Positions 3,980 through 27,527 of a stretch of 27,985 nucleotides of DNA are shown here, piece by piece (positions within the stretch are counted from its first letter, which is position 1; the number at the start of each line of letters is the position of its first letter). Source of the DNA: a virus; IMG/VR virus record IMGVR_UViG_3300025133_000488, positions 1 to 27,985 of that record, one strand, 5' to 3'. Both the position numbers and the translations under genes were made by a program. Under the pieces are notes generated by a model. It saw only the letters and a program-made list of their open reading frames with translations, had not been told where the DNA came from and did not search any database.

Positions 3980-4154
3980 CACTCTCCTGTTCATAGTAGA
4001 TGTCCACTTGTTTCCTCAATGATAGCATAATTCTAGACAAATCCCTATGAGAAAGTTGATCAAGTAGATATTTTTCATATGCTAAAATCAAAATATCAAT
4101 TTCATCCACAAGTTCTTTTGTGAATTCTTTTAATTTATCGTTTGAATTAGTAAT
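3954..4154 (-). CDS. Hypothetical helical protein with a probable ATT start, 66 residues
   Basis: The coding part (KLKEFTKELVDEIDILILAY and onwards to DDEFKRRP) is a charged, amphipathic helical protein. The open frame extends upstream to 4280, but that stretch lies inside the preceding gene in another frame and looks like its shadow. AAGGAG, located over the end of the preceding gene, stands 10 nt before an in-frame ATT at 4154, with no ATG, GTG or TTG in the right place. ATT is therefore the best start; a GTG about 20 codons later would remove conserved-looking sequence and has no ribosome site. Function unknown. Confidence 0.5.
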   Translation of the reverse strand: MTNSNDKLKEFTKELVDEIDILILAYEKYLLDQLSHRDLSRIMLSLRKQVDIYYEQESDDEFKRRP

Positions 4155-4749
4155 TTTTAGGAGACTCCTTAGTGTATTCCTTCTTAGATTTCTGTTCAAT
4201 GGTTTCTGTAGAAACTTTAATAAATCTTGCATAAGGAATAACCATAAGGTCTTCCAATAAAGGCATATTTTCCATATCAATACTATAAACTTCAGAGCGC
4301 AATCCTTCCCTCAATTTATAAGTCTTAAAACAGGGTTTGAGATATTGACCCATCTCTTTCCATGCCATTTTAAGAATCGCTCTTTTGAGAGTAGGAGATG
4401 GACCGGTTGCTTTACTTTGTTCTGATTTAAATCTAGCATTTGTTTCCGACATCATCCCAAACATTCTTTTCATTAAATACATTCGTTTTCTTGGAGTTAA
4501 ATAATGAAAATTATGACCGGTCAAAACGCCAGTGACAGGATTGAAGTCTTGAAACATCACCAAAGGATATTCGTCATATGATGGAACAACTTGTGCATCA
4601 TAGTTGAATGTCATAAAAGTACTAAATAATCGCCATGGGTCTGCTTGCGTGAAGTCACGCATAATTCGACCACCATTACGAACAATCTGATCCTTAACCT
4701 GATTAAAATTGGTAGTGGTTGGATCTAGAATATTCAGTTTTGGTGCCAT
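4147..4749 (-). CDS. Conserved T4-like phage protein, 200 residues, function unknown
   Basis: Start MAPKLNILDPT at 4749 is preceded by AGGAAA with about 8 nt spacing; the longer open frame runs into the upstream gene and is rejected. The middle has FNYDAQVVPSYDEYPLVMF, then GHNFHYLTPRKRMYLMKRM. This resembles a family I remember from T4-like marine phages with YDxFPLV and GLNxHYLPPKxR, some members of which have been annotated as DNA end protector-like or structural proteins. I cannot confirm that role. The protein ends in a charged tail rich in Lys and Glu. It overlaps the next gene by 8 nt. Confidence 0.65.
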   Translation of the reverse strand: MAPKLNILDPTTTNFNQVKDQIVRNGGRIMRDFTQADPWRLFSTFMTFNYDAQVVPSYDEYPLVMFQDFNPVTGVLTGHNFHYLTPRKRMYLMKRMFGMMSETNARFKSEQSKATGPSPTLKRAILKMAWKEMGQYLKPCFKTYKLREGLRSEVYSIDMENMPLLEDLMVIPYARFIKVSTETIEQKSKKEYTKESPKNY

Positions 4750-4759
4750 GAAGCGTTTC

Positions 4760-5401
4760 CTATCTATTTGCCCCCACCGGACCATCAGTAGGTGGTTGTT
4801 GATGATTTTTTCCACAACTTGCGCATGGTTTAGCAAATGGTCTTAAATCTGCATTTGAATCGTGATTCATTGCATATCCATTATTGGGATTAATTTTTTC
4901 AGAAACCAGACGTTCGCCTTGTTTATTTTCAATCAAACTTCGTCTATGAATTTCTGTTAGTCCGTTTTCTTGTTCTAATCGGAATTTTGCAGTAGGAACA
5001 TGCTCCAACCAGTAATCTTCAATTTTCTTCTGTTCGTCGCCGTTAACAATGAAGTAACGAGCAATATAAGTCTTTCTTGCCATAATATAGTCTTCATGAA
5101 GTTTCATTTTAGCAGGGCAGTTTTTATGAGTTTCTGATGCTTTACCCAATTCCGCAGGACCGCATGTAACAACAACTGTAACAGCAAAACCAGGTTTAGG
5201 TGGATACGTTCCCTTCTTTTGATTTTCTTCAACATGACCCTTCATTTGCAAACGTGCCAAATGTTCTTTTTGCTCATCCGGAAGACCACGAAATTGTTCC
5301 ATTGGAATTTTCACTTCTCGTCCTTGTTCATCCATAAAAACAAAAGGTGGCTCTACTTGTGGTCGTTTCACTTCTCTCGGTTTAAAATTCATTTTACTCA
5401 T
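4760..5401 (-). CDS. Hypothetical phage protein with Cys motifs, 213 residues
   Basis: The start MSKMNFKPREVKRP is set by GGAGAT 8 nt upstream; the longer open frame is not supported. There is a short beta-type segment FVFMDEQGREVKIP, a hydrophobic strand AVTVVVTCGPAE, a cysteine in HKNCPAK, and a C-terminal CASCGKNH. The cysteines and histidines could bind zinc, but their spacing does not match a family I can name. It lies 10 nt upstream of the next gene. A near-late box (TATAAATG) and an AT-rich leader lie just before it at about 5402-5445. Confidence 0.65.
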   Translation of the reverse strand: MSKMNFKPREVKRPQVEPPFVFMDEQGREVKIPMEQFRGLPDEQKEHLARLQMKGHVEENQKKGTYPPKPGFAVTVVVTCGPAELGKASETHKNCPAKMKLHEDYIMARKTYIARYFIVNGDEQKKIEDYWLEHVPTAKFRLEQENGLTEIHRRSLIENKQGERLVSEKINPNNGYAMNHDSNADLRPFAKPCASCGKNHQQPPTDGPVGANR

Positions 5402-5787: not shown

Positions 5788-5795
5788 TATTTATA
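5788..5795 (-). promoter_or_regulatory. T4-type late promoter box TATAAATA
   Basis: An exact TATAAATA on the minus strand lies in the 20 nt between tRNA-Glu and the 58-residue membrane gene. In T4 this 8-mer alone defines late promoters read by the gp55/gp33/gp45-modified polymerase. The ATG follows 7 nt downstream, close to where transcription should start. Confidence 0.6.
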
Positions 5796-8163: not shown

Positions 8164-9375
8164 TCAGAAGGGGCATTTGTTGTCGTCAGTGACTGCGGCA
8201 GTCTCTGCATTCTCATCCGTTCCTGCACGAAGATCAGCATCGATCTTCTCGTATAGACTCAGGAACGATTCCCGCGTCTCATCGTCAAACCGAGCAAGAC
8301 ACAAATTGATCGCTTTCTCACGCTCTCCGAAGATCGCGTATGCGTTCACGATGTCCACCAGACGGCGAGTAGAGATGATCTCATCCACTGCACCAGCATA
8401 GAATCCTTTGCGAACCGAATCAGACCAGGAGGTCAGATGATCGGCAAATTCAGCATCGCCCAGTCCCGCCTTGGTGAGAATCTTCTTCTCAGTGGACTTC
8501 GTTGGATAGGGTTGTTCAAACGTCACGGGGAAACGATCAAGCATCGCCTCATTCATAACACCAGTACCGACGAATCGTCCATCATCTGAACCCTTGCCTT
8601 TGGTATTAGCCGTGGCGAAGACGGTGAACCCGGCGGCGGGAGTGACCCACTGACCGATCTTCTTGAGGAATACACCCTTACCCTCAAGAACGGGTTGCAT
8701 GCACATCAGGTTGGCGGATCCGAGGTCAATCTCGTCCAGAAGCAGCACGCCACCATTCTTCATAGCGGAAACTACAGGACCATCCACCCATACGGTATTG
8801 CCGTTGATGAGGCGGAATCCACCCAGCAGATCGTCTTCGTCTGTCTGGCGCGTGATGTTCACGCGATAACATTCTCGCTTCAGTTTCGCACAAACCTGCT
8901 CCACCATGAGGGTCTTGCCGTTACCAGAAAGACCAGTCACGAAGATCGGGTAGAACTGCTTGGAGCGGACGATCTTCTCAACGTCAGAGAAGTGTCCCCA
9001 GGCGACATATCCGTCAAAGGCGGATGGGACGAGGGTAGCACGTTCGCCACCAGTCATACCCATCGTGAATGCTGCATTGGCAGCAGGAACGGACTCTACC
9101 GCACCCTGCGGTGCCACTGCGGGCACGGTGGCGCAAGCATTGGGCGCAGGGGCGGGAGTCTCGTCCTTCGGGGAAGCGGAGGCTATCTCAGGAATGTCGT
9201 AAAGACCCCGACCCGCTTTGCGGGTTGAGTCTTGCGTAATCCATGAAGGCGGGCATGTATAAATGCCCGTTGATTCACAAGCGGCGACTAGATCGGCGCG
9301 CGTGACTGGTGAAGTGCAACCCGCTGCCGCTAGGGCGTTCACGAATTGTTGAGGTCGTTGTTTGAGTTTCATCAT
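8164..9375 (-). CDS. MoxR/CobS-like AAA+ ATPase
   Basis: The 403-residue protein has an N-terminal winged-helix-like part (residues 5-60), an Ala/Pro-rich linker (65-105), then the AAA+ core with Walker A GLSGNGKT at 148-155, Walker B LLLDEID at 211-217 and a sensor-type TANTKGKG segment. This is the MoxR/CobS clade. CobS is the ATPase of aerobic cobaltochelatase and the name is often used for T4-like phage homologues, but no cobalamin genes are visible here. With the divergent VWA/HExxH protein it more likely forms a MoxR-VWA complex that remodels or processes protein targets. GGAGAC precedes two consecutive ATGs; transcription probably starts from the extended -10 at 9423. Confidence 0.85.
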   Translation of the reverse strand: MMKLKQRPQQFVNALAAAGCTSPVTRADLVAACESTGIYTCPPSWITQDSTRKAGRGLYDIPEIASASPKDETPAPAPNACATVPAVAPQGAVESVPAANAAFTMGMTGGERATLVPSAFDGYVAWGHFSDVEKIVRSKQFYPIFVTGLSGNGKTLMVEQVCAKLKRECYRVNITRQTDEDDLLGGFRLINGNTVWVDGPVVSAMKNGGVLLLDEIDLGSANLMCMQPVLEGKGVFLKKIGQWVTPAAGFTVFATANTKGKGSDDGRFVGTGVMNEAMLDRFPVTFEQPYPTKSTEKKILTKAGLGDAEFADHLTSWSDSVRKGFYAGAVDEIISTRRLVDIVNAYAIFGEREKAINLCLARFDDETRESFLSLYEKIDADLRAGTDENAETAAVTDDNKCPF

Positions 9376-9395
9376 GTCTCCGAAGGAAGGTCCGT

Positions 9396-9416
9396 GTCGC
9401 GGTTCCGTCCCGCGAC
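9396..9416 (-). promoter_or_regulatory. Leader hairpin of the AAA+ ATPase transcript
   Basis: GTCGCGG (9396-9402) and CCGCGAC (9410-9416) form a perfect 7-bp GC-rich stem with a 7-nt loop, placed between the -10 box and the GGAG ribosome site. It begins about 7 nt after the -10 box and would lie at the very 5' end of the mRNA, where it could stabilise the message. Confidence 0.6.
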
Positions 9417-9422
9417 CTGTGT

Positions 9423-9431
9423 ATTATAACA
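9423..9431 (-). promoter_or_regulatory. Extended -10 promoter (TGnTATAAT) for the AAA+ ATPase operon
   Basis: Minus strand TGTTATAAT followed by ACAC. No good -35 box lies 16-18 nt upstream, so recognition would depend on the extended -10. The same TGnTATAATACAC word occurs at the divergent VWA gene (9789-9797 onward). Confidence 0.6.
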
Positions 9432-9788
9432 GAAATTTGCCCTCATGTGGGGGTTAGGATAGACAAAATCCAGAAAATAAGGGTCAAATGACGTAAATAC
9501 CTGCAAATACAGCACTTGTGGAAGAAAATATAGTTTGTTCGGGTCTTGTTCGGTGCTTGTGTGCGTATAAAGACAGGAACGCGCACATGCACGCGCGAAT
9601 ACCATAATTATAACTCTGTGTCAATGGGTGAATGTTATAAAAATGGAAAAAAGAGTGAAATTAATGAAAAACACGGAGCAATTAACGATAAATCTATCCA
9701 TGTTTCGTGATTATCCTAGTGTCCGATAACAAAATCTTCGTTATTTTCCCATTTTGTCCATCCCAACCCCCATTTTAGGGTGAATTTG
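9432..9788. other. Divergent intergenic region between ATPase and VWA genes
   Basis: About 360 nt without a supported gene. One minus-strand open frame here has no ribosome site and poor composition. The region is moderately AT-rich and carries no clear repeats or hairpins besides the two extended -10 promoters at its edges. An operator for joint control could lie here, but none is visible. Confidence 0.4.
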
Positions 9789-9797
9789 TGGTATAAT
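9789..9797 (+). promoter_or_regulatory. Extended -10 promoter (TGnTATAAT) for the VWA gene, probably leaderless
   Basis: TGGTATAATACAC ends only a few bases before ATG 9805; 7 nt separate the -10 box from the ATG, so the mRNA should start at or within a few bases of it. No Shine-Dalgarno sequence is present. No good -35 box is visible. Confidence 0.65.
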
Positions 9798-9804
9798 ACA
9801 CGCG

Positions 9805-12033
9805 ATGAAACAGGGAACCCCTAACGTACGAACCGCCGCCAAGGACATCCTTGCGCGCCTCCTCGCGTCCGAAGACCTCACGGTCCAGCATGACGCATCT
9901 GCTGAGACAGCGTACTTTGACACTCAGAACCGTATTCTGTGCCTGCCCGTATGGGAAGACATGGATTCACACATGTATGACATGCTCGTCGGGCATGAAG
10001 TGTCCCACGCGCTGCATACGCCCGCCGATGGTTGGCAAGGATTCGTCGGTGACGATGCTAATTCACAATTGCGTCATATGTGCCTGAACGTCTGCGAAGA
10101 TGTCCGCATTGAACGCAAAATAAAAGATAAGTTTCCCGGACTCCGCCGTGACTTTGCCAAAGCATACAAGTCGCTGCATGAGCGGGATATCTTTGAAATG
10201 AAGGGTAAGTCAGTGTCTGACCTGCCTTTGATTGACCGCATCAACCTGTACTACAAGGGTGAGATCTACGGACAGATGAATATCCCATTCACCGCTGAAG
10301 AGCGGGAGTGGTTGACTCGTCTGGATGCTGCAAATTCCTTTGAGGATATCATGGAAGTCGCATCTGACCTCTTTGACGCAACCAAAGAAGAGCAAGAGCA
10401 GCAACAGCAGCAACAGCAAGTCCAATTGGACGAAAACGGCGAAGAATCAGCGCAAGGTGTCGGTGAAGGTGAGGGCGGTTCTGACTCTGAGAAGGGTGAG
10501 ACCTCCGAATCCGCATCTGGTGCTGGTGCTGGCGACGAACAAGGCGACAATGAGCAGGGCGAAGACTCTGGACAATCCGCTGATGACGATACCGACGATG
10601 GCGAGTCTGCTGATTCCCAACAAGGTGAGCAGTCCAGCGAATCTGGCGATGACCTGTCCTACGATTCCTATAATAATGACCCCTCACCTGGTTCCACTCA
10701 ACGGAACTACGAGAAGGCTCAAGATTCAATGCGGGATGATAATGCGAAGGAACATTGTTACTTCAACGTCCCACATGCCAACCTTGACAACATTATCATC
10801 TCCCCTACGCAAATTGCAGCAGTATGGGATGAATTTCTCAGTTCTACGCGGGGAGATCGGGACCAGTACGCTCGGTACGTCCAGTCCTGTCGGGAATTCA
10901 AGTCCAACTCCAAAGCAATTGTGAATCATATGGTTCAGCAATTCCAGCAGAAGCAAGCAGCGGACGCATCCAAGCGTTCCCATGTTGCGAAGACTGGCGT
11001 TCTTGATACCACTACGATGATCAACTATCGTTGGAGCGAAGACATCTTCCTCAAGAATGAAGTCCACTCAGACGGCAAGAATCACGGCATCGTCCTGTTC
11101 CTTGATTGGTCTGGTTCAATGAGTGGAATCCTCAAGGATACCATTGAGCAGTTGCTGATTCTTGTGGAATTCTGCCGCAAAGCAGGAATCCCCTACGAAG
11201 TATATGCATTCACTAGTTGCATGTTTAATGATGACTTCAATCACTACTGCCACAGCGAAGAAGCACTGAAAAAGCGTGAAGCATATTACGCCAATCAATT
11301 CGCCACTGACGATAATACATTGAGTCCTCACGGATTCCAATTGCTCAATTTCCTCAGTAGCAAGCAGAATGCAAAGCAGCATATTACTGCTGTTAACAAC
11401 CTCTACAATTGTGGTTGCAATAACTACCGCGTTCCACCAGTCCTACATCTCGGTTCCACTCCCCTGAATGAAGCAATCGTCGCTGGTTTGGAGATCGTCC
11501 CGCAGTTCCAAAGTGAGAACGCGATTCAGATCGTAAATACCATATTCCTCACCGATGGCGATGGACATAACATCCTCGGTAACGGATACTACAATTCCTC
11601 AAATAAGTTTATCCAAGATCCTGTGACCCGTAAGACCTATGCGGTTCGTAATAGTGATACCAACGCACTCATTCAATTGCTCAAGGACCGGACTGGTGCT
11701 AGTGCGATCAGCATCCGCTTGCACGATTCCAACAATATCAAATCCCTGCGATATCGCTACTTCTCTGGTAGTGATTGGGATACTGAGAATGCACAATTTG
11801 AGAAAGCGTGCAAAGCATACAAGACTGGACATCACTTCGTTCATGAGACTGGTGCATGGGATCTGAATCTGGTAGTCAAGGGCAACCTCAAGGTTGAAAC
11901 AGATCCGTTTGAGAATCTTCCCGGAGACGCGAGCAACACTCGGATTCGTAATGCATTCATCAAGGGTGGCAATCGTAAGAAGTCCAGTCGGGTGATCTCT
12001 AATCGGATCGTGGATGTGATTGCGGTAGGTTGA
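9805..12033 (+). CDS. CobT-like VWA-domain protein with HExxH metal site
   Basis: This 742-residue protein combines three parts. The N-terminal part carries HEVSH at residues 64-68 and a later NVCEDVRIERK helix, the layout of a zinc metallopeptidase site. Residues about 190-310 are low-complexity and rich in Gln, Glu, Asp and Ser. The C-terminal part is a von Willebrand A domain with a MIDAS DWSGS at 434-438 and FLTDGDG near 577. CobT of cobaltochelatase has a similar acidic linker and VWA domain, and T4-like phage relatives are named CobT or peptidase. Facing the AAA+ gene, it is the likely partner subunit. The HExxH suggests proteolysis rather than metal chelation, which is inference. It has no ribosome site. 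Confidence 0.8.
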   Translation: MKQGTPNVRTAAKDILARLLASEDLTVQHDASAETAYFDTQNRILCLPVWEDMDSHMYDMLVGHEVSHALHTPADGWQGFVGDDANSQLRHMCLNVCEDVRIERKIKDKFPGLRRDFAKAYKSLHERDIFEMKGKSVSDLPLIDRINLYYKGEIYGQMNIPFTAEEREWLTRLDAANSFEDIMEVASDLFDATKEEQEQQQQQQQVQLDENGEESAQGVGEGEGGSDSEKGETSESASGAGAGDEQGDNEQGEDSGQSADDDTDDGESADSQQGEQSSESGDDLSYDSYNNDPSPGSTQRNYEKAQDSMRDDNAKEHCYFNVPHANLDNIIISPTQIAAVWDEFLSSTRGDRDQYARYVQSCREFKSNSKAIVNHMVQQFQQKQAADASKRSHVAKTGVLDTTTMINYRWSEDIFLKNEVHSDGKNHGIVLFLDWSGSMSGILKDTIEQLLILVEFCRKAGIPYEVYAFTSCMFNDDFNHYCHSEEALKKREAYYANQFATDDNTLSPHGFQLLNFLSSKQNAKQHITAVNNLYNCGCNNYRVPPVLHLGSTPLNEAIVAGLEIVPQFQSENAIQIVNTIFLTDGDGHNILGNGYYNSSNKFIQDPVTRKTYAVRNSDTNALIQLLKDRTGASAISIRLHDSNNIKSLRYRYFSGSDWDTENAQFEKACKAYKTGHHFVHETGAWDLNLVVKGNLKVETDPFENLPGDASNTRIRNAFIKGGNRKKSSRVISNRIVDVIAVG

Positions 12034-12479: not shown

Positions 12480-12503
12480 ATAGTATACATTTTTAGTTTA
12501 TTT
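12479..12503. repeat. 25-bp direct repeat, copy 1 (vestigial gene start)
   Basis: Identical to 12747-12771. On the minus strand each copy spans the stop of one gene and the start codon context of the next (TAAACTAAAAATGTATAC). After this copy the reading frame is broken by the terminator stem, so it marks a lost third gene copy or a junction left by recombination. Confidence 0.8.
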
Positions 12504-12758
12504 ATGATTGATTCTATCTTGTCTTGGAGGAAGTGCATTCTTCACGCGGCTGTTGGTGGGATGGGTATCCAGTAGATTACCAACTTTTTTTGCAACCTTT
12601 TTTGCAACATCTGCTACCTTACCTTCATCAACAAAATCTCTTACAGCATCAGCAGTCTCTAACAACTCATTGAATGCTTCCATGATATCTTCATCGGACG
12701 TAGACTCATTGAGTTCGTCACCAAAGTAACCTTCAAGATATTCTAGTATAGTATACAT
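12498..12758 (-). CDS. Acidic helical LNE-repeat protein, shorter tandem paralogue (86 residues)
   Basis: After MYTILE comes the domain YLEGYFGDELNESTSDEDIM...LLETADAV, nearly identical to the upstream gene, then a Lys/Val-rich stretch (VADVAKKVAKKVGNLL) and a basic tail. It lacks the 30-residue N-terminal part of its paralogue. There is no ribosome site; the ATG is 7 nt after the upstream stop, so it may depend on reinitiation. The LNE triplet fits a T4-type prohead protease site, which could place it among prohead core proteins. Function unknown. Confidence 0.65.
   Translation of the reverse strand: MYTILEYLEGYFGDELNESTSDEDIMEAFNELLETADAVRDFVDEGKVADVAKKVAKKVGNLLDTHPTNSRVKNALPPRQDRINHK
12643..12743. 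repeat. 101-bp duplicated coding segment, copy 1
   Basis: This segment and 12971-13071 align without gaps with about ten mismatches over 101 bp (about 90 % identical). Both encode the YLEGYFGDELNEST domain of the two tandem paralogues, showing recent duplication. Confidence 0.8.
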
Positions 12759-12771
12759 TTTTAGTTTATTT
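12747..12771. repeat. 25-bp direct repeat, copy 2
   Basis: Identical to 12479-12503. It spans the stop codon of the 129-residue gene and the start codon of the 86-residue gene on the minus strand. The pair defines a 268-bp unit that contains the shorter gene. Confidence 0.8.
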
Positions 12772-13155
12772 TATACCGGAAATATATGGTCCTGCGGCTT
12801 GTGATCTATTGAAAGCAAGCATTTCTGGACTCATTGGTTTCTTTCCCATAAGTTCGTCTCGTCTGCGGGCACGATCCGGACTCAGGGGTTTTTTATTCTT
12901 CGTCTTCGGTACGGCGGAACCCCTCTTTATAGAATCACCAGTTCCTATAAATTCTTTCAAATAATCTTTAACAGCATCAGCAGTCTCTAACAATTTAGCA
13001 AATGCTTCCATGATGTCATCTTCAGAAGTAGACTCATTGAGTTCGTCACCAAAGTAACCTTCAAGATATTCCATTACCAGTTGATCACGCTCAGTATTAT
13101 CAAGGTTAACTACGCTAATGATTGATTCTATAAGTTGTTGGTCGATTTTATCCAT
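12766..13155 (-). CDS. Acidic helical LNE-repeat protein, longer tandem paralogue (129 residues)
   Basis: Residues 1-30 are an amphipathic helix (MDKIDQQLIESIISVVNLDN), followed by MEYLEGYFGDELNESTSEDD and a helical LLETADAVKDYLKEF, then a basic Pro-rich tail with two KPLSPD/KPMSPE segments (two short, similar motifs). A GAAGGA ribosome site precedes ATG 13155. The DELNES motif resembles the (L/I)xE cleavage site of T4-like prohead proteases. Related domains occur twice in the gene at 15337-15771. I associate such sequences with T4-like marine phages, function unknown. Confidence 0.7.
   Translation of the reverse strand: MDKIDQQLIESIISVVNLDNTERDQLVMEYLEGYFGDELNESTSEDDIMEAFAKLLETADAVKDYLKEFIGTGDSIKRGSAVPKTKNKKPLSPDRARRRDELMGKKPMSPEMLAFNRSQAAGPYISGIK
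12971..13071. repeat. 101-bp duplicated coding segment, copy 2
   Basis: Partner of 12643-12743, about 90 % identical, encoding the homologous domain in the 129-residue gene. Confidence 0.8.
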
Positions 13156-14744: not shown

Positions 14745-14942
14745 CTATCTCTTTCTATTAGTTTCCTGATAACGACGAAAAGCAGCAGCAATTTCCCTTG
14801 TGTTTGCTGCTCCCCTGGGATTTAGTTTTAATTGCTTTTTTAATTGCTTTTTTATGACAGCATGATTAAACTTAATAGGATCATCATGCTGTCTAATTAG
14901 CCGAAGCAATGGACCTTCTGTTAAGTGTTTATATGATGTCAT
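14745..14942 (-). CDS. Small basic protein with possible capsid-targeting leader, 65 residues
   Basis: The start MTSYKHLTE resembles the T4 leader in length, the Tyr at position 4 and a closing LTE. The remainder is strongly basic (IKKQLKKQLKLNPRGAANTR) and ends NRKR, as expected of a DNA-associated internal protein. The gene abuts the next upstream gene (stop and start share base 14942). No family is recognised; internal virion protein is a hypothesis. Confidence 0.6.
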   Translation of the reverse strand: MTSYKHLTEGPLLRLIRQHDDPIKFNHAVIKKQLKKQLKLNPRGAANTREIAAAFRRYQETNRKR

Positions 14943-15340
14943 TATGATGTCTTTATGCCGTTTTCACTTGTTTTTGCAATCATCAATTTACGAATTCTTT
15001 CCGACTCTGATTTTCTCATACGGGGTAAGAGTTTCTTGGCAAGTTTTGATATTGCATTTTTCTTTTTATCCAATGCTTTTGAGACAGTTTGTTTTTGTCC
15101 CAAACTCATTTGTGAATATGGCGTATCACCAAACAACTTTTTAATGAGTTTATTTCGTGCTGACTTGCTAGCCTTCGCTTTAAGTTGGTCGCCAGTCTTT
15201 ATTCTCATTTGCTTTCTTTTACGAGTGTTGGCTCTTCTTTTTGCAGTTCTTCTAGCAGCACGAGCCATTTTACGGCGAGTATCCATAGATATCGCTTCAT
15301 TCAAAAGCATAGTTATAAGATATTCCCTAGTTTCGTTCAT
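14942..15340 (-). CDS. Highly basic conserved T4-like phage protein with LNE leader, 132 residues
   Basis: The first 15 residues (MNETREYLITMLLNE) end in LNE followed by AIS, a likely prohead-protease site. The rest is very basic: RRKMARAARRTAKRRANTRK at about 22-41, then YSQMSLGQKQTVSKAL and KLAKKLLPRMRKSE. I know this layout (Lys/Arg cluster, YxxLS..K, I..IAKRLLPxVRK) from many T4-like marine phages, without function. Charge and leader suggest a DNA-condensing prohead core or internal protein. It overlaps the acidic upstream gene by 4 nt, so a basic and an acidic protein are made together. Confidence 0.75.
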   Translation of the reverse strand: MNETREYLITMLLNEAISMDTRRKMARAARRTAKRRANTRKRKQMRIKTGDQLKAKASKSARNKLIKKLFGDTPYSQMSLGQKQTVSKALDKKKNAISKLAKKLLPRMRKSESERIRKLMIAKTSENGIKTS

Positions 15341-15771
15341 TCATCTGAAAAATATAAATCAAACGCTTCACAAACCAATGCAAGTTGATCGAATGCTTCT
15401 TCAATTTCTTCTTTTTGCACATCCTCATTAAGCGAATCGGCAAAATACGAGTTGAGGTACTCATCAACAACTGGTTCTAACTCTTCATCGCCAGTTTCAG
15501 CATACTCTAAAACACATGCATATACTTCCTTATATGCATTGACACACTCCACTACTGATTCATTAATGTCCTCTTCGCTTGAAGATTCGTTCAACGAATC
15601 GCCCACATATAAATCAATATGTTCAAACACGAAATCCTCAAGATTATTTATGTCGATCTCTTCTTTAGTCTCTTTAGTCTCTTTAGTCTCTTTAGTCTCC
15701 CATAGATTCTGGGGGTTCTTAGAGACTTCTTCTAATCCTTGAAGATGCATTAAAAAATCATTTTTATTCAT
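15337..15771 (-). CDS. Acidic protein with two LNE-type repeats and KET repeat, 144 residues
   Basis: Residues 24-36 are a TKE-type tripeptide repeat encoded by four 9-bp units. Two copies of the roughly 40-residue domain follow: IDLYVGDSLNESSSEEDI and YLNSYFADSLNEDVQKEEI, each continued by a helical acidic part. They match the domain of the paralogues at 12498-13155. LNES and LNED may be prohead-protease sites. Acidic, helical and cleavable proteins occur in T4 prohead cores, but the role here is inferred. It is the first gene of the operon, with AAAGGA and a good promoter upstream. Confidence 0.7.
   Translation of the reverse strand: MNKNDFLMHLQGLEEVSKNPQNLWETKETKETKETKEEIDINNLEDFVFEHIDLYVGDSLNESSSEEDINESVVECVNAYKEVYACVLEYAETGDEELEPVVDEYLNSYFADSLNEDVQKEEIEEAFDQLALVCEAFDLYFSDE
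15663..15698. repeat. Four perfect 9-bp tandem repeats (CTTTAGTCT)
   Basis: Four head-to-tail copies inside the acidic 144-residue gene encode alternating Lys-Glu-Thr on the minus strand. The unit is a multiple of three, so copy-number change would lengthen the linker without frameshift. Confidence 0.85.
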
Positions 15772-17432: not shown

Positions 17433-18113
17433 ATGGAAAAACAAAAGCAATTTACGCATAGAGAAAAAGAATGGAATTTGGAAGAGATGTCGGCAACGAC
17501 TAATACCGGAATCCGCTTATACAATTCCCCAATCGGCAATCTTCCAAGTGTCACGACTGTAACCGGATGGAAGAAGAAGGATTTCTTTGCTGAGTGGAGA
17601 AAAAACAATCCAAAAGAATCCAAGAGAGTGTGTGACCGAGGAAATGTAATTCACGACACTATAGAGCATTATCTCAACAATGAAAATGTTGATGTGGAAT
17701 CTATACCGAAACTTGAGGCGGAAATGTTTACGAACGCTCTTTCTGAACTGAACAGAATAGACAACATATATGAATTGGAAACGTCTCTGTGGTCTGAACT
17801 TCTTGGTCTTGCTGGTCGTGTTGATTGTATCGCTGAGTTTGATGGTAAACTATCCGTGATAGACTTCAAGGGAAGTACCAAAAAGAAATCAAAGAAATAC
17901 ATTAGTAACTATTTTCTTCAAGCGACTGCATATGCTATTATGTTTCAAGAAAGAACCGGTATTGAAATTGACAATATTGTGATTCTTGTAACATGCGAGG
18001 GTGGTCCGGTTCAGGTTTTTGAAGAAGAACCCAAACGATATATAAAATTGTTACACCACACAATAAAAGAGTACCGCAATGAAAATGAAATGCCTCAGCA
18101 CCTTCCTGTCTGA
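17433..18113 (+). CDS. PD-(D/E)XK exonuclease, RecB/MGME1-like
   Basis: The 226-residue protein has the RecB-type nuclease layout: H74 in DRGNVIHDTIE, E117 in ELETSLW, LAGRVDCIAEFDGKL with D131, then VIDFKGS with D144 and K146, and the helix YFLQATAYAIMF with Q163. The first part (LPSVTTVTGWKKK) is typical of MGME1-like phage exonucleases. It should digest single-stranded or duplex DNA ends using two metal ions, in recombination or replication. The start at 17433 follows AAGGTG; the open frame begins earlier but overlaps the promoter. Its last 29 nt overlap the ligase-like gene. Confidence 0.88.
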   Translation: MEKQKQFTHREKEWNLEEMSATTNTGIRLYNSPIGNLPSVTTVTGWKKKDFFAEWRKNNPKESKRVCDRGNVIHDTIEHYLNNENVDVESIPKLEAEMFTNALSELNRIDNIYELETSLWSELLGLAGRVDCIAEFDGKLSVIDFKGSTKKKSKKYISNYFLQATAYAIMFQERTGIEIDNIVILVTCEGGPVQVFEEEPKRYIKLLHHTIKEYRNENEMPQHLPV

Positions 18114-19272
18114 ATCTAAAAATACACACCTAGAACATATTGAAGATTCTATCTTCATGAGTTCAGATGAAGTGAAAGATTCTATTCGTTTCCTGACTTC
18201 ATTGCGAAACATGCTCGGGGGACATTCATCAAAAGGTATTGGTCTTACCGTCAAGTGGGATGGCGCACCCGCAATCATTTGTGGGAAGGATCCAGAAAAT
18301 GGTAAGTTTTTTGTTGGAACAAAAAGTGTATTTAACAAAACTCCCAAAATCAATTACACCAATGCAGACATTAACAAAAATCATAGTGGTGGATTAGCAG
18401 ATAAACTTAAAATTGCACTAAAGCATTTATCTAAATTAGAAATCACCGGCGTTCTTCAAGGTGATTTAATGTTCACTGAGGGCGATTTCGTCTCAAAAGA
18501 AATTGATGGTGAACAATTCATCACTTTCACCCCAAATACAATTACATATGCTGTGTCAGAAAATAGTTTATTGAGCAGCAAACTTAAGCGAGCAAAGATG
18601 GGGATTGTATTCCACACAGAATATAAAGGCAGAACCATTCAAACAATGAGAGCATCCTTCGGTCCCAAACTACGACTTAAGAAAAGCAATGATGTTTGGT
18701 ATGATGATTCGTCGTTTAAGGACTTTTCTGGAGTCAATTTATCTTCATCGGATATAAATAAATTTGATGCATCGTTAACAAATGCAACATCTCTCATCAA
18801 ACGTGTGGGTCGCTTCTTGGATTCCATTGAACCTAATGTCCAGTCTCTTCTTAAAATATACATCAATTCCAAAGTGCGAGTAGGCACGCTAGAGGTTTCA
18901 CATAATGATTTTGTGAAATATGTCAATGGTGTGTATGAGGGAAAGATTGATAAGTTGGGAAGTGATGCAGGAAAGTCTCGAAAGAAGAAAGAATTAGATT
19001 CTATCGTCTCAACGTTGAATTCACAATCTTCGAAATATGACGATATGTTTGATTTATTTGGGGAACTTTTAGTGTTAAAAAACATTATTGTTAGTCAACT
19101 CAATAAAATCAAGGGCAAAATGAAAACTTTCGTAAAGACAGACTCTGGATATAAAATCACTGCCCCTGAAGGATTTGTAAGTATTGACCAAAAATCCGAC
19201 AAAGCATTTAAGTTGGTTGACAGACTTGAATTTTCAAAAAACAACTTTACCGTTGCAAAAAATTGGGATTAA
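18085..19272 (+). CDS. Ligase-fold nucleotidyltransferase-like protein (DUF6267-like) with capsid-targeting leader
   Basis: The start MKCLSTFLSE is a ten-residue leader with F7, L8 and E10 like T4 MKTYQEFIAE; ATG 18079 is the alternative. Then THLEHIEDSIF and LRNMLGGHSSKG lead to VKWDGAPAIICG, in which K57-W-D-G60 matches the nucleotide-binding KxDG motif of ATP-dependent DNA/RNA ligases. LQGDLMF at 124-130 and GIVFHTEYKG near 173 sit where motifs III and IV fall, though Glu of these motifs is replaced. I know this family from T4-like marine phages (DUF6267); activity is unproven. Fold assignment fairly good, ligase activity uncertain. 395 residues. Confidence 0.75.
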   Translation: MKCLSTFLSESKNTHLEHIEDSIFMSSDEVKDSIRFLTSLRNMLGGHSSKGIGLTVKWDGAPAIICGKDPENGKFFVGTKSVFNKTPKINYTNADINKNHSGGLADKLKIALKHLSKLEITGVLQGDLMFTEGDFVSKEIDGEQFITFTPNTITYAVSENSLLSSKLKRAKMGIVFHTEYKGRTIQTMRASFGPKLRLKKSNDVWYDDSSFKDFSGVNLSSSDINKFDASLTNATSLIKRVGRFLDSIEPNVQSLLKIYINSKVRVGTLEVSHNDFVKYVNGVYEGKIDKLGSDAGKSRKKKELDSIVSTLNSQSSKYDDMFDLFGELLVLKNIIVSQLNKIKGKMKTFVKTDSGYKITAPEGFVSIDQKSDKAFKLVDRLEFSKNNFTVAKNWD

Positions 19273-19273
19273 A

Positions 19274-19612
19274 ATGCTAAATAGAGATGATGTAAACCGG
19301 AAGAACACTCGGACTTGGGTAAAAATTAACGAAGATTCAAAGAAAAAACATTATCAGAAAATATTTTTAGATAAATATGGTGGATGCTTTAAAAAAGTGA
19401 ATAGAGGACTTATATGGGAAGAGGTTGTTAATAACTCCCAGACGAAGGAAAAGACGATATATCGCTTATTCTTTCCAGATGGTAAAGAAGAAGTGGTCGA
19501 TAATGTCACAAAATTCTGTAGGAAAAACAACCTAAACAAATCAGCCCTCTATGCAGTTTTGAGAGGCGAACGTAAACACCATAAAGGATTCACAATCCAA
19601 AAGGAGGATTAG
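19274..19612 (+). CDS. NUMOD-like DNA-binding protein, probable homing-endonuclease remnant
   Basis: The 112-residue protein starts MLNRDDVNRK just 1 nt after the ligase-like stop, without a clear ribosome site. The C-terminal third, FFPDGKEEVVDNVTKFCRKN followed by LNKSALYAVLRGERKHHKGF, is a NUMOD1-type module, the DNA-binding repeat attached to HNH and GIY-YIG homing nucleases. No catalytic HNH or GIY-YIG motif remains in the N-terminal part. It may be a remnant of a homing nuclease or a free DNA-binding protein. Its stop is followed 2 nt later by the 38-residue membrane gene. Confidence 0.65.
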   Translation: MLNRDDVNRKNTRTWVKINEDSKKKHYQKIFLDKYGGCFKKVNRGLIWEEVVNNSQTKEKTIYRLFFPDGKEEVVDNVTKFCRKNNLNKSALYAVLRGERKHHKGFTIQKED

Positions 19613-19890: not shown

Positions 19891-19913
19891 ATATATAAAA
19901 TGGAGGTTTGCGC

Positions 19914-22900
19914 ATGAAAACTGCTGTATTTACATTTGGTAGATTTAATCCACCAACCATAGGTCATGTTAAATTGATTACTAAAGTAAAGAAGACTGCT
20001 CGCTCTGTGGGTGGTGATTCTTTCATATTTGCAAGTCCGTCTCATGACAGCAAAAAAAATCCATTGACGTACAATTCAAAAGTCAAACTCTTAACCAAAA
20101 TAGCAAGAAAAAGTAATGTCATAAACAACGATGAAATAAGAACCCCGTTCCATGCATTAGCATACCTAAGTGCATTGAATTATGATACCATTTATATGGT
20201 TGTGGGTTCCGATAGAGTGAAAGAATTTGAACGAAATATGTCCAAGTATATTGGAAGTGGGGAATACAAGAACATTAAAAAAATTGTCGTGGTGTCTGCT
20301 GGTGAACGCGACCCCGATGCAGAAGGCGTTTCTGGTATGTCCGCGTCTAAAATGAGACAAGCAGTGGTAGATGATAATTTAAACACATTTCAATCAGGAA
20401 TGCCAACAATGATTAATAAAAGAGAAGTCCAACGAGTATTTCAAGAAATAAAAAGAAACATGAATATCCGAGAATGGGTAGATATAGATGAACTCTATGC
20501 ATTTATATGTGAACATGGTCATCGATTCACAGAAGATATAAACAACCTATTTGAAGCAAACGAATTGTCCGTGTATGTTGTTCGCACCAAAGAGAATGAT
20601 GTTGAAATAACAAGACATATTAGTGGGGATGTTAAAAAGGTATTGGGTAGAAGTAAGGAAGGTACATCCGAGAAAGCAAAGGATGCCCCCATACTCAGTA
20701 AAGGTTCCATTAAAAGTATAATTCGACCTGCTATTCAAAAAGGTGAGTTTAGAGTTACACCCACGGCAAAAGAATTCCTTGATGATGAAATAATCAAAGC
20801 AGCAAAAACAAGTTATATTGGGAATACTAGTGAATATGAAAAGGATGTAGAGAAGAAAGACGACACTTCTTCCAAAGAAGAAAGAAAAGACACAACAAGA
20901 AGTGTTCCAACACCCGTTTCCACATCACCAATAAAACGCAAGAGTATGGATATTAAACCACAAGGTGCAAAAGTTAGTGTTAGTGAATTGTCCATAAATG
21001 ATTTAACAACACAATATGGTGTGTTGAAGAAAAAGGGTGGAAATTTAGGTCTTCAGTTAGAATTCGCAACAGTATTATTGGCTCGTATCGCAACAGGACA
21101 AGATATTGAGGATCTCCGTAATGATCCTAAATTCTTTACATTCTCAGAAGAGGCACTTGAACAAGCAAAGGGATGTATAAGTCAACTCGGACCCGAATGT
21201 CTACAAAATCTAAAGCACTCCACAGAGGTAGATGTTAGAGGAATTAACGGGGGCGAACCAAAGACAGATCTTTTATGTGGCGACAATCGCTTCAGTATGA
21301 AGGCAGATGGCGGATATCAATTCTCTTCTGCTAATTATTCAACAACCGGAAAAGAATTTAGAAGAGCATTAGAAACCACAGCCCAACGAGTAAGTGAAAA
21401 TCCTTCTTTAAAAAGCAACAAGTATGTTCAAGAGGGTATACTAAAAATGGTAGAGTCTCTAGAGGCTTTCCCAAAGTATCTCCTAAACCAAGAAAAAATT
21501 GATGCTAAGGTAGGGGAAAATCCTGAAATCATTGAAACCCTACAAAATACCCCAATCGAATATGACGATGGTAGAGATGCCGGTATGATGATGTTAGAGG
21601 ATGGTTCAATAAATCCAGAATGTGACTTTATAAGTGCAAGAGAACATCTTGATTCTGCGTGTTCAGAATTTTTAGATAATTATAATAAGGCTCCAGACGA
21701 ACAAGAAGAATTTATGCGTCTGTTTAAAGAAGAGTTAACACATGTGCAGGTAACCGGAGAAGGACTAGGCTTCGACGACGAAAGAGCAGCAGCATCGCAT
21801 GTGTTAACACCAACAGGGATCTATGCAGCAACAAGAAAGTATTCTAAAGATCTGGCCGAAGTTAACACACTTCGTCTTTCTGTTAAAGAGAAAAAGTTCG
21901 GGCTTGTGAAATTTGCAAAGGGTGTGGCCAAGAAACTCAAAGGCAGAAAAGCCGTAGACGCTGGACAACGAACATCAGTACGCTCTGAAGTACGGGCGGG
22001 CGAAGGACTCAAAAGAGCAAAAGAGTTAGCAAATAGTCATAAAGTTCAGATAGAACAAATCGACCAGCAGTTCAGCAACTTGATGGAAGCAAATGGAATT
22101 GATATCTCCTCACTAGGAACTACAACAGAAGATGTTAAAAATTCTGTTAATGAAGAAGACTTTACTCACACTATGGTAGGTGTATCTAACATAGAACTAG
22201 ACATGTCTTATATTCCTGGTGTGTCTATAGATGATATGACAAATAGTGCTTCTAGAAAAAATACAATCAGGATAAATGGGAAAGATATTATAATAGAAGT
22301 TGAACCAGAGGAAATTCCTTCATTGATTAATCATGAAAATTCTGTTAATGAAGAATTTAATCTCATATTTGAAGTCCAAGATAGAGCAGACGAAGAAGAC
22401 ACAAAGTCAGCAAAGAAAAGAGAACGATCCAACCAAAAGACACGCCGAACAAAAGAACAACATCAGAACTCTTCAGATGAAGAATTTACTTCAATAAAGA
22501 AACCAAAAGCAGAAACTGACGTAGATGCAAGATTTGAAACGGAAATTGATGACCCCTTGATGTCTAGATCTGGAGAATGGATAGGACTAGAACCAGACAT
22601 GAAGTTAGACAGAGCAAAGGAAATCAAAGACGCTCTTTATGAATTGTTAGCAGATGAAGAAATGGCGGAAAAGTTAGATCCGAATGATAAGTACGTCAAA
22701 GAGTGGTATATCAAAACCCGACCATTTTACGATGCTTACATTGAGGACGAAAAAAGCGTCACCATGTATAGTACCGCGTCTGATGTGAAGGATATTATCA
22801 ATAATTGGGAAAGTCTTGACAAGCAATATGATAACATCTCAAAAAAGGTAAAGAAGACTGGTGTAAAGAAATCTACTGCTCATATCCGCGACTTTGATCC

Positions 22901-23243
22901 GCCAGAACCTCCTGAAGAACCCGCAGCAGAAGGGGGGGAAGAGAAGCAACCGGTGGATGAATCATTCTCTAACCTGTTTGAAAAGAATGCAAAAATTGAA
23001 ATGGCTCTTCCAGGATATCCATACCAAAATGATAATTGGGAAGTGGGATATCCGCCAAGACCCGTGAAGATTAAAAGAAAAACAAATGAAGACTATGGTT
23101 CCGGTTTTGATGGAACGTCTGATTACGTTAGAAAACTCATAAAAGACACACCTGGTGCAGAAGAACCTGATTTTCTCAAAAAACAAAAAAAGGGTGAGTC
23201 CAAAGAAACTAAATGCAGTAAGGGAACTGCGAATCGCGTCTAA
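19914..23243 (+). CDS. Nucleotidyltransferase/nuclease-like protein with repeated prohead-protease-like sites
   Basis: ATG 19914 follows GGAGG at 19902-19906; the TTG at 19908 is rejected. Residues 1-170 are a cytidylyltransferase-like domain: FTFGRFNPPTIGH with T15-x-G-H18 and a late SASKMR at 143-148, equivalent to the (I)SSTxxR motif of NadM/NMNAT-type enzymes that transfer nucleotides. Near 450, PKTDLLCGDNRFSMK gives D452 and S461-M-K463, a PD-(D/E)XK-like pattern known from phage nucleases. Four related sites, NNLFE (E214), SNLME (E725), NLIFE (E820) and SNLFE (E1023), match (L/I)xE cleavage sites and separate five segments. Hence it may be a virion polyprotein. Substrates unknown. 1109 residues. 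Confidence 0.75.
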   Translation: MKTAVFTFGRFNPPTIGHVKLITKVKKTARSVGGDSFIFASPSHDSKKNPLTYNSKVKLLTKIARKSNVINNDEIRTPFHALAYLSALNYDTIYMVVGSDRVKEFERNMSKYIGSGEYKNIKKIVVVSAGERDPDAEGVSGMSASKMRQAVVDDNLNTFQSGMPTMINKREVQRVFQEIKRNMNIREWVDIDELYAFICEHGHRFTEDINNLFEANELSVYVVRTKENDVEITRHISGDVKKVLGRSKEGTSEKAKDAPILSKGSIKSIIRPAIQKGEFRVTPTAKEFLDDEIIKAAKTSYIGNTSEYEKDVEKKDDTSSKEERKDTTRSVPTPVSTSPIKRKSMDIKPQGAKVSVSELSINDLTTQYGVLKKKGGNLGLQLEFATVLLARIATGQDIEDLRNDPKFFTFSEEALEQAKGCISQLGPECLQNLKHSTEVDVRGINGGEPKTDLLCGDNRFSMKADGGYQFSSANYSTTGKEFRRALETTAQRVSENPSLKSNKYVQEGILKMVESLEAFPKYLLNQEKIDAKVGENPEIIETLQNTPIEYDDGRDAGMMMLEDGSINPECDFISAREHLDSACSEFLDNYNKAPDEQEEFMRLFKEELTHVQVTGEGLGFDDERAAASHVLTPTGIYAATRKYSKDLAEVNTLRLSVKEKKFGLVKFAKGVAKKLKGRKAVDAGQRTSVRSEVRAGEGLKRAKELANSHKVQIEQIDQQFSNLMEANGIDISSLGTTTEDVKNSVNEEDFTHTMVGVSNIELDMSYIPGVSIDDMTNSASRKNTIRINGKDIIIEVEPEEIPSLINHENSVNEEFNLIFEVQDRADEEDTKSAKKRERSNQKTRRTKEQHQNSSDEEFTSIKKPKAETDVDARFETEIDDPLMSRSGEWIGLEPDMKLDRAKEIKDALYELLADEEMAEKLDPNDKYVKEWYIKTRPFYDAYIEDEKSVTMYSTASDVKDIINNWESLDKQYDNISKKVKKTGVKKSTAHIRDFDPPEPPEEPAAEGGEEKQPVDESFSNLFEKNAKIEMALPGYPYQNDNWEVGYPPRPVKIKRKTNEDYGSGFDGTSDYVRKLIKDTPGAEEPDFLKKQKKGESKETKCSKGTANRV

Positions 23244-23279: not shown

Positions 23280-23759
23280 ATGAGAAAATTCAAAGAACTA
23301 AGAGACTTTCTTAAAGAAAGTGAATATACACCAACTACTGACACTTGGCAATCGGCATATAGTGACTATGGTGTATATCGGATTGAGAATGAAGAGCAAT
23401 TGAATAAAATCAACGCATTCATTCACACTTTCACCGAAAGATCATTCATTGAACCTAGACATGCTATGTCCCAACTCAGACAAAAGTTGAATCTTGCTGG
23501 GTTGGATTTTGAAATGCCGAGCAACAACTCCATCAAAGAAGGTACGACTTCCTATAAAATCAATCGGTTCGGTGGTGAGTTTGGTACTACACCAACACAC
23601 AACCTCATGAAGAATGGTTTTTACAAAGGTGATGGTATATCTCACAATAACAATGGTGTCGGTATGTCTCTACAATGCACTTATGACGTTAATGAGTCTG
23701 GTCTTTATAAAATAAAGGCAATGATTGTTCCTGATAATAAACCTAACAATGAAGAATAA
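23280..23759 (+). CDS. Conserved phage protein with capsid-targeting-like leader, 159 residues
   Basis: The start MRKFKELRDFLKE ends in LKE followed by S, a probable prohead-protease site, and AAAGGAG precedes the ATG. The body has YGVYRIENEEQLNKINAFIH and PRHAMSQLRQKLNLAGLDFE, a pattern I remember from T4-like phages (YRxxNxEQLxRINxF...RxKLNxxGLxF) without known function, then a Gly/Asn-rich C-terminal part with NLMKNGFYKGDGI. It would be an internal virion protein if the leader functions. It starts the gene string 23280-26027. Confidence 0.65.
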   Translation: MRKFKELRDFLKESEYTPTTDTWQSAYSDYGVYRIENEEQLNKINAFIHTFTERSFIEPRHAMSQLRQKLNLAGLDFEMPSNNSIKEGTTSYKINRFGGEFGTTPTHNLMKNGFYKGDGISHNNNGVGMSLQCTYDVNESGLYKIKAMIVPDNKPNNEE

Positions 23760-24729: not shown

Positions 24730-24874
24730 TAAAAACAGAAACAACCCTCCGGTGAGACAGAGGGTGATTAAAAAAACAATAAACTCCAACGTCAGACCAA
24801 AAAAGAAAGTCCCACCCCAACAAATAACTAGCAACACGAACTACAAGAACCCAACACCGAGGAAGAGAAAATGA
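24713..24874 (+). CDS. Small basic Cys-motif protein, 53 residues
   Basis: The frame overlaps the previous gene by 17 nt and the next start by 4 nt (ATGA), as in a tightly coupled operon, and an AGG lies 9 nt before the ATG. It begins MGCGCNKNRNN and is then rich in Lys, Arg, Pro, Asn and Gln, ending RKRK. Small MGCGC-type basic proteins occur in other T4-like phages as I recall. Function unknown; the two cysteines could bind metal or form a disulfide. Confidence 0.6.
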   Translation: MGCGCNKNRNNPPVRQRVIKKTINSNVRPKKKVPPQQITSNTNYKNPTPRKRK

Positions 24875-25356
24875 AAACATTTGGTCAACTAATAAATGAA
24901 ATAACAAACGTTGCTAACCCTGCTGCAATTACTGGATTGGGTAATGAGCCTCCAGTACATCCAGAAAAGAAAAAGGACAAGTTTGCTGGATGCAGTGTGT
25001 TTGATGTTACTCCCAACGAGTATGCCAAGTGTATGCGTGGTCGCATGAAGTTTGAACGTTGGGGGAATAAATTGAACATGGAAGACGCACACAATTCTGA
25101 AATTCGTTCTTATTCTCACAAGAATCCGGGTTCACCTGTTATTGTACGAAATCAAATGACTGGTGAAATGTCATATCTTATTCCAAAAAGAGTAGACGAA
25201 AATTCTCCCAATCCAGAAAATATTAGCAAACGATTAGATGACCTTCGTGCAAAAAACACAAGAATCGATGATGCAAAAAGAAAAGAAAAAATAGGATTCG
25301 TGACCATAGTTGGTCAGGGTACTAGCACGGTAGCAAAACGACCCCAAGATGTGTGA
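24871..25356 (+). CDS. Conserved phage protein with capsid-targeting leader, 161 residues
   Basis: The start MKTFGQLINE matches the T4 leader at M1, K2, T3, I8 and E10, with INE as the predicted cleavage point. The body has CSVFDVTPNEYAKCMRGRMK, ERWGNKLNMED and HKNPGSPVIVRNQMTGEMSYL, a pattern I know from other T4-like phages, without function; the tail is basic and helical. It starts with ATGA coupling to the 53-residue gene and GAGGAAGAG upstream. The mature protein would be about 151 residues and packaged. Confidence 0.7.
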   Translation: MKTFGQLINEITNVANPAAITGLGNEPPVHPEKKKDKFAGCSVFDVTPNEYAKCMRGRMKFERWGNKLNMEDAHNSEIRSYSHKNPGSPVIVRNQMTGEMSYLIPKRVDENSPNPENISKRLDDLRAKNTRIDDAKRKEKIGFVTIVGQGTSTVAKRPQDV

Positions 25357-26657: not shown

Positions 26658-26765
26658 TTACAACCCCCTTGCAATTAAAGTTCCTATCATGAATCCAATC
26701 AACGAAACAATCATTCCTTCAGGTGTCGCTAGTAACATCAATCGCGTTTTCCAAAACTCCTTCAT
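26658..26765 (-). CDS. Putative 35-residue membrane peptide
   Basis: The frame starts MKEFWKTRLMLLATPEGMIV and continues through a hydrophobic glycine-containing segment to a basic end (IARGL). One membrane helix is predicted. GAGGAG lies 13 nt before the ATG, rather far, and the first 47 nt overlap the end of the protease gene in another frame. Small membrane peptides are frequent in such genomes; expression is uncertain. Confidence 0.45.
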   Translation of the reverse strand: MKEFWKTRLMLLATPEGMIVSLIGFMIGTLIARGL

Positions 26766-27519: not shown

Positions 27520-27527
27520 TATTTATA
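27520..27527 (-). promoter_or_regulatory. T4-type late promoter box TATAAATA for the protease gene
   Basis: Exact late box on the minus strand, located between the porin terminator and ATG 27510, 9 nt before the ATG. The predicted transcript has almost no leader and no clear Shine-Dalgarno sequence. Confidence 0.6.

Follow-up and report, generated by a model that had tools for sequence, protein, structure and literature searches.

A divergent gene pair in the virus record IMGVR_UViG_3300025133_000488 (27,985 bases, called the window below) raises the question of whether its products, a MoxR/CobS-type AAA+ ATPase and a protein with a von Willebrand factor A (VWA) domain, are cobaltochelatase subunits or a remodelling machine that carries a metallopeptidase. 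Both answers have been published. Iyer et al. (2021) described a MoxR and metallopeptidase-vWA pair in jumbo phages and proposed a role in virion assembly (PMC7824862), and Liu et al. (2021) named the cyanophage pair cobST and deemed the 'peptidase' annotation mistaken (PMC8651126). The best explanation as a whole appears to be an ATP-driven remodeller whose clipping domain depends on metal and which acts on replication or recombination substrates; to this we give a probability of about 0.5. The two genes are as follows.

8164 to 9375, minus strand: MoxR/CobS-type AAA+ ATPase, 403 residues, phrog_249 (AAA_5, phrog_249 and phmmer matches)
9805 to 12033, plus strand: zincin-VWA (CobT-like) protein, 742 residues, phrog_459 'peptidase' (full-length phrog_459 match, AlphaFold2 (AF2) model)

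Both open reading frames (ORFs) are open, and their start codons are 429 bp apart. In profile matches, phrog_459 covers residues 10-740 of the VWA protein (8.9e-179) and phrog_249 covers residues 112-392 of the ATPase (2.1e-112). The window pair is almost certainly a member of the known phrog_249/phrog_459 pair. The same pair in T4-like cyanophages (Kyanoviridae), annotated 'porphyrin biosynthesis' and 'peptidase', shares the full-length VWA-protein match, the ATPase-core match, the motifs and the closeness of the genes, whereas the genes of the window group diverge and lie apart from gp46/gp45, with about 30-35% identity for the VWA protein and 48-64% for the ATPase. Since phrog_459 carries the 'peptidase' annotation in hundreds of cyanophages, the pair is already known, and what is of interest is the wider pattern, not the window copy. 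A preliminary description of the window had put forward a three-function machine; it was already present in Iyer et al. 2021 and in public annotation.

The case for a peptidase starts from two motifs in the N-terminal part of the VWA protein.

9994 to 10008, plus strand: HEVSH, residues 64-68, predicted catalytic Glu and two zinc-ligand His (sequence, conservation)
10087 to 10113, plus strand: NVCEDVRIE, residues 95-103, acidic helix in which E98, D99 or E103 is the candidate third ligand (conservation)

HExxH did not arise here by chance: from composition alone, 0.05 such motifs are expected per protein of this kind. In an alignment of 64 rows (about 50 clusters, all at least 27% identical to the window protein), H64, E65, H68, N95, E98, D99 and R101 are invariant, H64 and H68 being within the five most conserved columns. 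Some of these loci had been fetched with HE-containing patterns, and the collection was therefore redone with VWA-only patterns: HExxH and N..EDxx[IVM]E were kept in 80/80 full-length N-termini. The preliminary description had proposed conservation of H64, E65 and H68 as a test, and non-conservation is refuted by this count. The six nearest relatives (about 50% identity in the VWA part) also retain HExxH. In the aligned sets, every member that bears HExxH has acidic residues at the positions of D99 and E103, even Vibrio phage JSF27, in which Val replaces E98; we therefore favour D99 as the third zinc ligand, E103, four residues further, and E98 being the other candidates.

The predicted structure of the same region points in the same direction.

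9805 to 10440, plus strand: N-terminal zincin-like domain, residues 1-212 (AF2 predicted local distance difference test (pLDDT) 91.2, predicted template modelling score 0.86; structural matches)

The AF2 model of the full-length VWA protein has a mean pLDDT of 78.8. The model of the N-terminal domain (N-domain) has three strands, an active-site helix (55-71) with HEVSH and a helix (87-109) with the acidic motif, in line with the earlier remark that a helical Glu follows HEVSH. In Foldseek, the N-domain model scores best against two minigluzincins, jannalysin and selecase (probability 0.93-0.99, E 0.05-0.27). The top rows in VIA are zincins without exception: ArdC (Z 6.4), BlaR1 (6.0), jannalysin (5.9), abylysin (5.6) and IrrE (5.0). 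A fold unrelated to zincin peptidases, which would have spoken against the peptidase, was not what the prediction returned. Because the structural scores are modest, we call the zincin fold of the N-domain probable; a metal-binding zincin fold is likely, and the domain is predicted, with reasonable likelihood, to be an active peptidase. Minigluzincins (jannalysin, abylysin, selecase), ArdC, IrrE and Wss1 share the predicted fold and HExxH on the active-site helix, but the structural scores are weak, there is no sequence match, and the third ligand of the phage domain has three candidates. Searches of Pfam, NCBIfam and PDB sequences directly with the VWA protein gave nothing useful. The structural matches that were listed for these models do not include CobT, an absence that is uninformative. 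DUF2201_N (PF13203) was rejected as a source of the N-domain: its motif spacing is similar, but profile support was lacking (no Pfam match; hhalign local mode E 0.08-0.29 against 12 members).

HExxH has been lost naturally in three relatives that keep the VWA motif DxSGS: REVST is found in L011 (4918-6900), QEVAK in L267 (5171-7093) and HLAAGH in L269 (5827-7575), and the first two still carry the ATPase gene next door. These three proteins are candidate pseudo-peptidases by their motifs. As the VWA motif (and the ATPase in L011 and L267) outlasts HExxH, remodelling may be the base function, with clipping added. Such losses also favour remodelling without proteolysis, in which the zinc site would be structural or metal-sensing and the N-domain would only bind the substrate or the ATPase ring. 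That genuine CobT works without HExxH counts for this explanation as well, whereas catalysis would require just such strictness as E65 and both His show in all 80 phage homologues; we consider remodelling without proteolysis unlikely.

The remainder of the VWA protein and the ATPase carry the features of a MoxR-type system.

10372 to 10695, plus strand: acidic low-complexity linker, residues about 190-297 (sequence; AF2 pLDDT <50 at 214-285)
11074 to 12030, plus strand: VWA domain, residues 424-742, metal-ion-dependent adhesion site (MIDAS) D434, S436, S438, T552, D584 (VIA, profile, conservation)
8911 to 8934, minus strand: Walker A GLSGNGKT, residues 148-155 of the ATPase (translation)
8725 to 8748, minus strand: Walker B VLLLDEID, residues 210-217 of the ATPase (translation)

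The MIDAS is complete: DWSGS lies at residues 434-438, D434, S436, S438 and D584 are invariant in the 64-row alignment, and T552 is conserved. The architecture given in the preliminary description (Walker A/B, acidic linker, DWSGS, HEVSH at 64-68) was confirmed in the translations, HEVSH lying at the residues stated. In VIA comparisons, the VWA domain matches the MIDAS domain of midasin (Z 17.9) and the VWA domain of NorD (15.6), known from NorQ-NorD complexes, and thus resembles partners of MoxR-type rings. The ATPase has an AAA_5 core (Pfam, 8.9e-20), both Walker motifs and a VWA partner gene as divergent neighbour, as expected of a MoxR AAA+ protein; phmmer matched it to CobS (9ujv, 9e-21) and to NorQ (4e-12). 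NorQ/NorD, CbbQ/CbbO, RavA/ViaA and midasin likewise have a MoxR-type ATPase acting with a MIDAS VWA domain, and we know of no HExxH zincin domain in the partners of these systems. The two genes also occur together. Searching by tblastn with each protein gave identical record counts (365 Synechococcus phages, 61 Cyanophage and 24 Prochlorococcus phages), and all 8 tested related IMG/VR records above 100 kb hold the ATPase. In Herelleviridae (A511), the ATPase is present and the VWA motif was not seen in the four neighbours read.

The timing of expression was approached through elements in the intergenic region.

9420 to 9431, minus strand: promoter-like element TGTTATAATACA before the ATPase gene (sequence)
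9789 to 9800, plus strand: twin promoter-like element TGGTATAATACA before the VWA gene (sequence)
9396 to 9416, minus strand: hairpin GTCGCGG..CCGCGAC in the 5' leader of the ATPase gene (read by eye)

The twin elements, which speak for co-regulation of the two genes, are near-identical or identical within each phage and differ between phages; an exact 16-mer precedes both genes in L148 (4406-4421, 4818-4833) and an exact 17-mer in L152 (1835-1851, 2010-2026). The ATG of the window VWA gene lies 7 nucleotides after TATAAT, and the VWA start codon is found 6-9 nucleotides past a -10-like box in 6/6 genomes read. Given this proximity, the VWA mRNA is predicted to lack a leader. Within the window, the T4-type late motif TATAAATA occurs 6 times against 1.46 expected (at 5788, 16375, 18753, 24645, 26769 and 27520), but in this window search it was absent near the pair, which suggests that the pair is expressed in early or middle infection. 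The enrichment also fits a T4-like phage, and a homologue of the DNA end protector (phrog_429) is found at 4147-4836. Directly downstream of the ATPase promoter-like element, the hairpin is perhaps an mRNA-stabilising leader; both of its arms are changed in L147 and L148 with pairing retained (by eye, no formal covariation test).

We then considered the genes that surround the pair in phages and in other mobile elements. In S-PM2 the order is gp47-gp46-peptidase-CobS-gp45-gp44, and the pair lies within the gp47-gp46 ... gp45-gp44 cluster in S-PM2, P-TIM40, P-SSM3 and S-SCSM1. From 86 phage loci fetched by the VWA pattern, 34 contain gp46, 31 gp45 and none gp13-gp23. The pair stands amid helicase, primase, DNA ligase, recombinase and Pol III genes in a Stenotrophomonas phage, and Pol III alpha adjoins it in a Klebsiella phage and is close to it in an Acinetobacter plasmid. 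Outside phages, 2146 plasmid records of PLSDB carry the family (1771 are conjugative), and recombination or replication genes are nearby in 7/8 of those sampled. The order on pR997 is ssb-bet-exo-AAA-DUF3150-VWA-radC-primase; the other sampled elements have ssb-bet-exo (IncC plasmid), recT-exo (another plasmid), dnaE or toprim genes. This AAA-DUF3150-VWA module of SXT/R391-type integrative and conjugative elements (ICEs) and of IncC/IncHI plasmids has a homologous N-domain, a VWA domain and usually an AAA partner, with HExxH in 6/8 sampled VWA proteins. It differs by the extra DUF3150 gene and by adjoining ssb, bet, exo, radC or primase; a DUF3150 gene was not noticed beside the window pair, no PF11348 scan of the window ORFs having been made. 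The MoxR-VWA gene group had been noted earlier on IncP-7, IncH, IncT, SXT and R391 elements (PMC2642839), and we found no paper on its function there. Two close full-length relatives in metagenome-assembled genomes (MAGs), L095 (Latescibacterota MAG, 52%) and L096 (Phycisphaerae MAG, 42%), are on short contigs and are likely mis-binned phage.

These data bear on the virion-assembly role of Iyer et al. 2021, in which the pair would be a chaperone with a processing peptidase that assembles and trims structural proteins. It was proposed for jumbo phages by analogy with ATV tail chaperones, and the group 2.2 jumbo-phage pair has, by its published description, the same architecture (a vWA domain preceded by a metallopeptidase domain at the N-terminus, and a MoxR partner), its proposed role being the difference (PMC7824862). 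However, the cyanophage pair sits in replication/recombination clusters and not with gp13-gp23, the late motif is missing beside it despite its enrichment in the window, and the module is also carried by conjugative plasmids and ICEs, which build no phage head. Four T4-like cluster C cyanophages have no cobS, and yet one of their virions is very long-tailed (PMC10665884). For the S-SCSM1 virion proteome, the text mentions three non-structural proteins by name, the pair not being among them, with 13 proteins of unknown function unchecked (PMC9602691). The texts of the virion proteome papers do not name the pair, although they do not name every detected protein either. We hold a virion-assembly role to be quite improbable.

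The relationship with CobT was addressed by profile comparison, each E-value below being that of a single comparison. Over its linker and VWA region, the phage profile matches solved CobT (5.5e-21). For the N-domain, the direct comparison of phage proteins with genuine CobT is weak (E 0.0065), and the link passes through intermediates that bear HExxH in ICEs, plasmids and T5-like phages: the phage N-domain matches the plasmid/ICE N-domain (hhalign 99.2%, E 1.2e-19), which matches that of genuine CobT (96.4%, E 1.2e-9). A relative in a Klebsiella phage combines HEVGH and NALEDVYIE with matches to Pfam CobT (2.6e-23) and CobT_C (5e-100). Genuine CobT has ADxxA or SDxxA at the HExxH position, followed by a retained FDAxEQARxEA-type helix, and HExxH is absent from the first 250 residues in 28/29 alphaproteobacterial CobT. 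Genuine CobT thereby looks like a family member that lost its metal site. CobS/CobT (PF06213, PF11775; PDB 9uka) share with the phage pair the AAA+ ATPase, the acidic linker, the VWA domain and these linked N-domains, but differ by [AS]DxxA instead of HExxH and by needing CobN. By these sequence comparisons, the labels 'metallopeptidase-vWA' of Iyer et al. and 'CobST' of Liu et al. would each have a point. The contrast between protease and CobT in the preliminary description was accordingly too sharp, the VWA half matching solved CobT and the N-domain being profile-linked to it; its preference for a protease survives better, since the strict HExxH, the zincin-like predicted fold and the failure to find CobN make a metallopeptidase-bearing MoxR-VWA machine the likelier of the two.

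The ATPase scores 61 bits against the CobS equivalog TIGR01650 (cut-off 558.55), and the VWA protein has no match to PF06213 or PF11775 at E up to 1. CobN (PF02514) was not found in nine related records, 8 of them above 100 kb, though a host may have one; the control search for PF02514 was positive in Synechococcus elongatus. In line with the preliminary description, no other cobalamin gene was found among the window genes scanned. A cobaltochelatase CobST that borrows host CobN and raises cobalamin (Liu et al. 2021) would draw on true homology to CobS and CobT and on the CobN-type subunits of some hosts, but it is very unlikely in view of these searches, of the same family lying beside recombination genes on plasmids, and of an HExxH kept in phages and missing from genuine CobT, by which selection points to another job.

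For the remodeller with a clipping domain, the following mechanism can be proposed. The CobS-type ATPase would form an AAA+ ring, on which the CobT-type protein would dock via its VWA/MIDAS domain and present substrates; the ring with its VWA adaptor would pull on or reshape a target protein, and the zincin N-domain would clip the protein so remodelled. We infer ring formation, docking and cutting from NorQD, CobST and RavA-ViaA, and likewise infer metal binding, timing and target. The machine would be expressed early or mid infection, and its substrate would be phage or host replication/recombination machinery, e.g. a stalled or covalent DNA-protein complex blocking the fork, or a DNA-bound inhibitor. 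This target, drawn from gene neighbourhood only, is the weakest step and has somewhat less than an even chance of being right.

Several points weigh against this mechanism. Peptidase activity, zinc content and the complex are predictions, the structural matches score low in absolute terms (Z no higher than 6.4; Foldseek E no lower than 0.05), and the third zinc ligand is a candidate among E98, D99 and E103. VWA members without HExxH (L011, L267, L269 and genuine CobT) indicate that proteolysis may be dispensable. No ATPase lies near the VWA gene in 38/86 relatives' loci, many loci being fragments. About 40 of the 86 loci are without any S-PM2 context gene, and the window pair does not adjoin gp45/gp46. 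Gene neighbourhood is in any case weak evidence of a target, conjugative plasmids being rich in replication genes regardless. A broader scenario is somewhat unlikely: phages, ICEs and conjugative plasmids would have spread an ancient MoxR-zincin-VWA machine that clips or strips proteins while DNA is replicated and recombined, and cellular cobaltochelatase CobT would be derived from it by loss of the metal site in its zincin domain.

The cobS gene belongs to the core genes of T4-like cyanophages, and many ocean surveys count it among the vitamin B12 'auxiliary metabolic genes'. Should its partner be a metallopeptidase with a replication/recombination role, such counts would be misleading. The link to CobT would explain why one protein goes by two names, 'peptidase' and 'CobT'. 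With the homologue on conjugative elements, a direct test in a laboratory strain would be possible.

Other features were observed elsewhere in the window. Six proteins have N-termini like T4 capsid-targeting sequences (gp21 prohead protease sites), against 0.5 in shuffles, with a regular expression chosen after the N-termini had been seen.

1637-2260, 14942-15340, 18079-19272, 23280-23759, 24871-25356: capsid-targeting-like N-termini (regular expression)

From their N-termini, these may be head-packaged internal proteins; the ATPase/VWA pair is without such N-termini. The ORFs at 18079-19272 and 19908-23243 correspond to the N-terminal and the C-terminal part, respectively, of a single PHROG, phrog_455 (764 residues), the second part carrying a cytidyltransferase (NMNAT-like) domain. 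Between them, a small ORF (19184-19612) ends in a NUMOD-like stretch, NLNKSALYAVLRGERKHHKGFTI, and a phrog_455 gene split by a homing element is possible from this arrangement. Three neighbouring ORFs (12498-12758, 12766-13155 and 15337-15771) share a repeated acidic motif of the EYLEGYFGDELNESTSxxDIMEAF type. Finally, 26719-27510 (minus strand) encodes a trypsin-like serine protease with a lipoprotein-type N-terminus, with a late-promoter motif just upstream (27520-27527).

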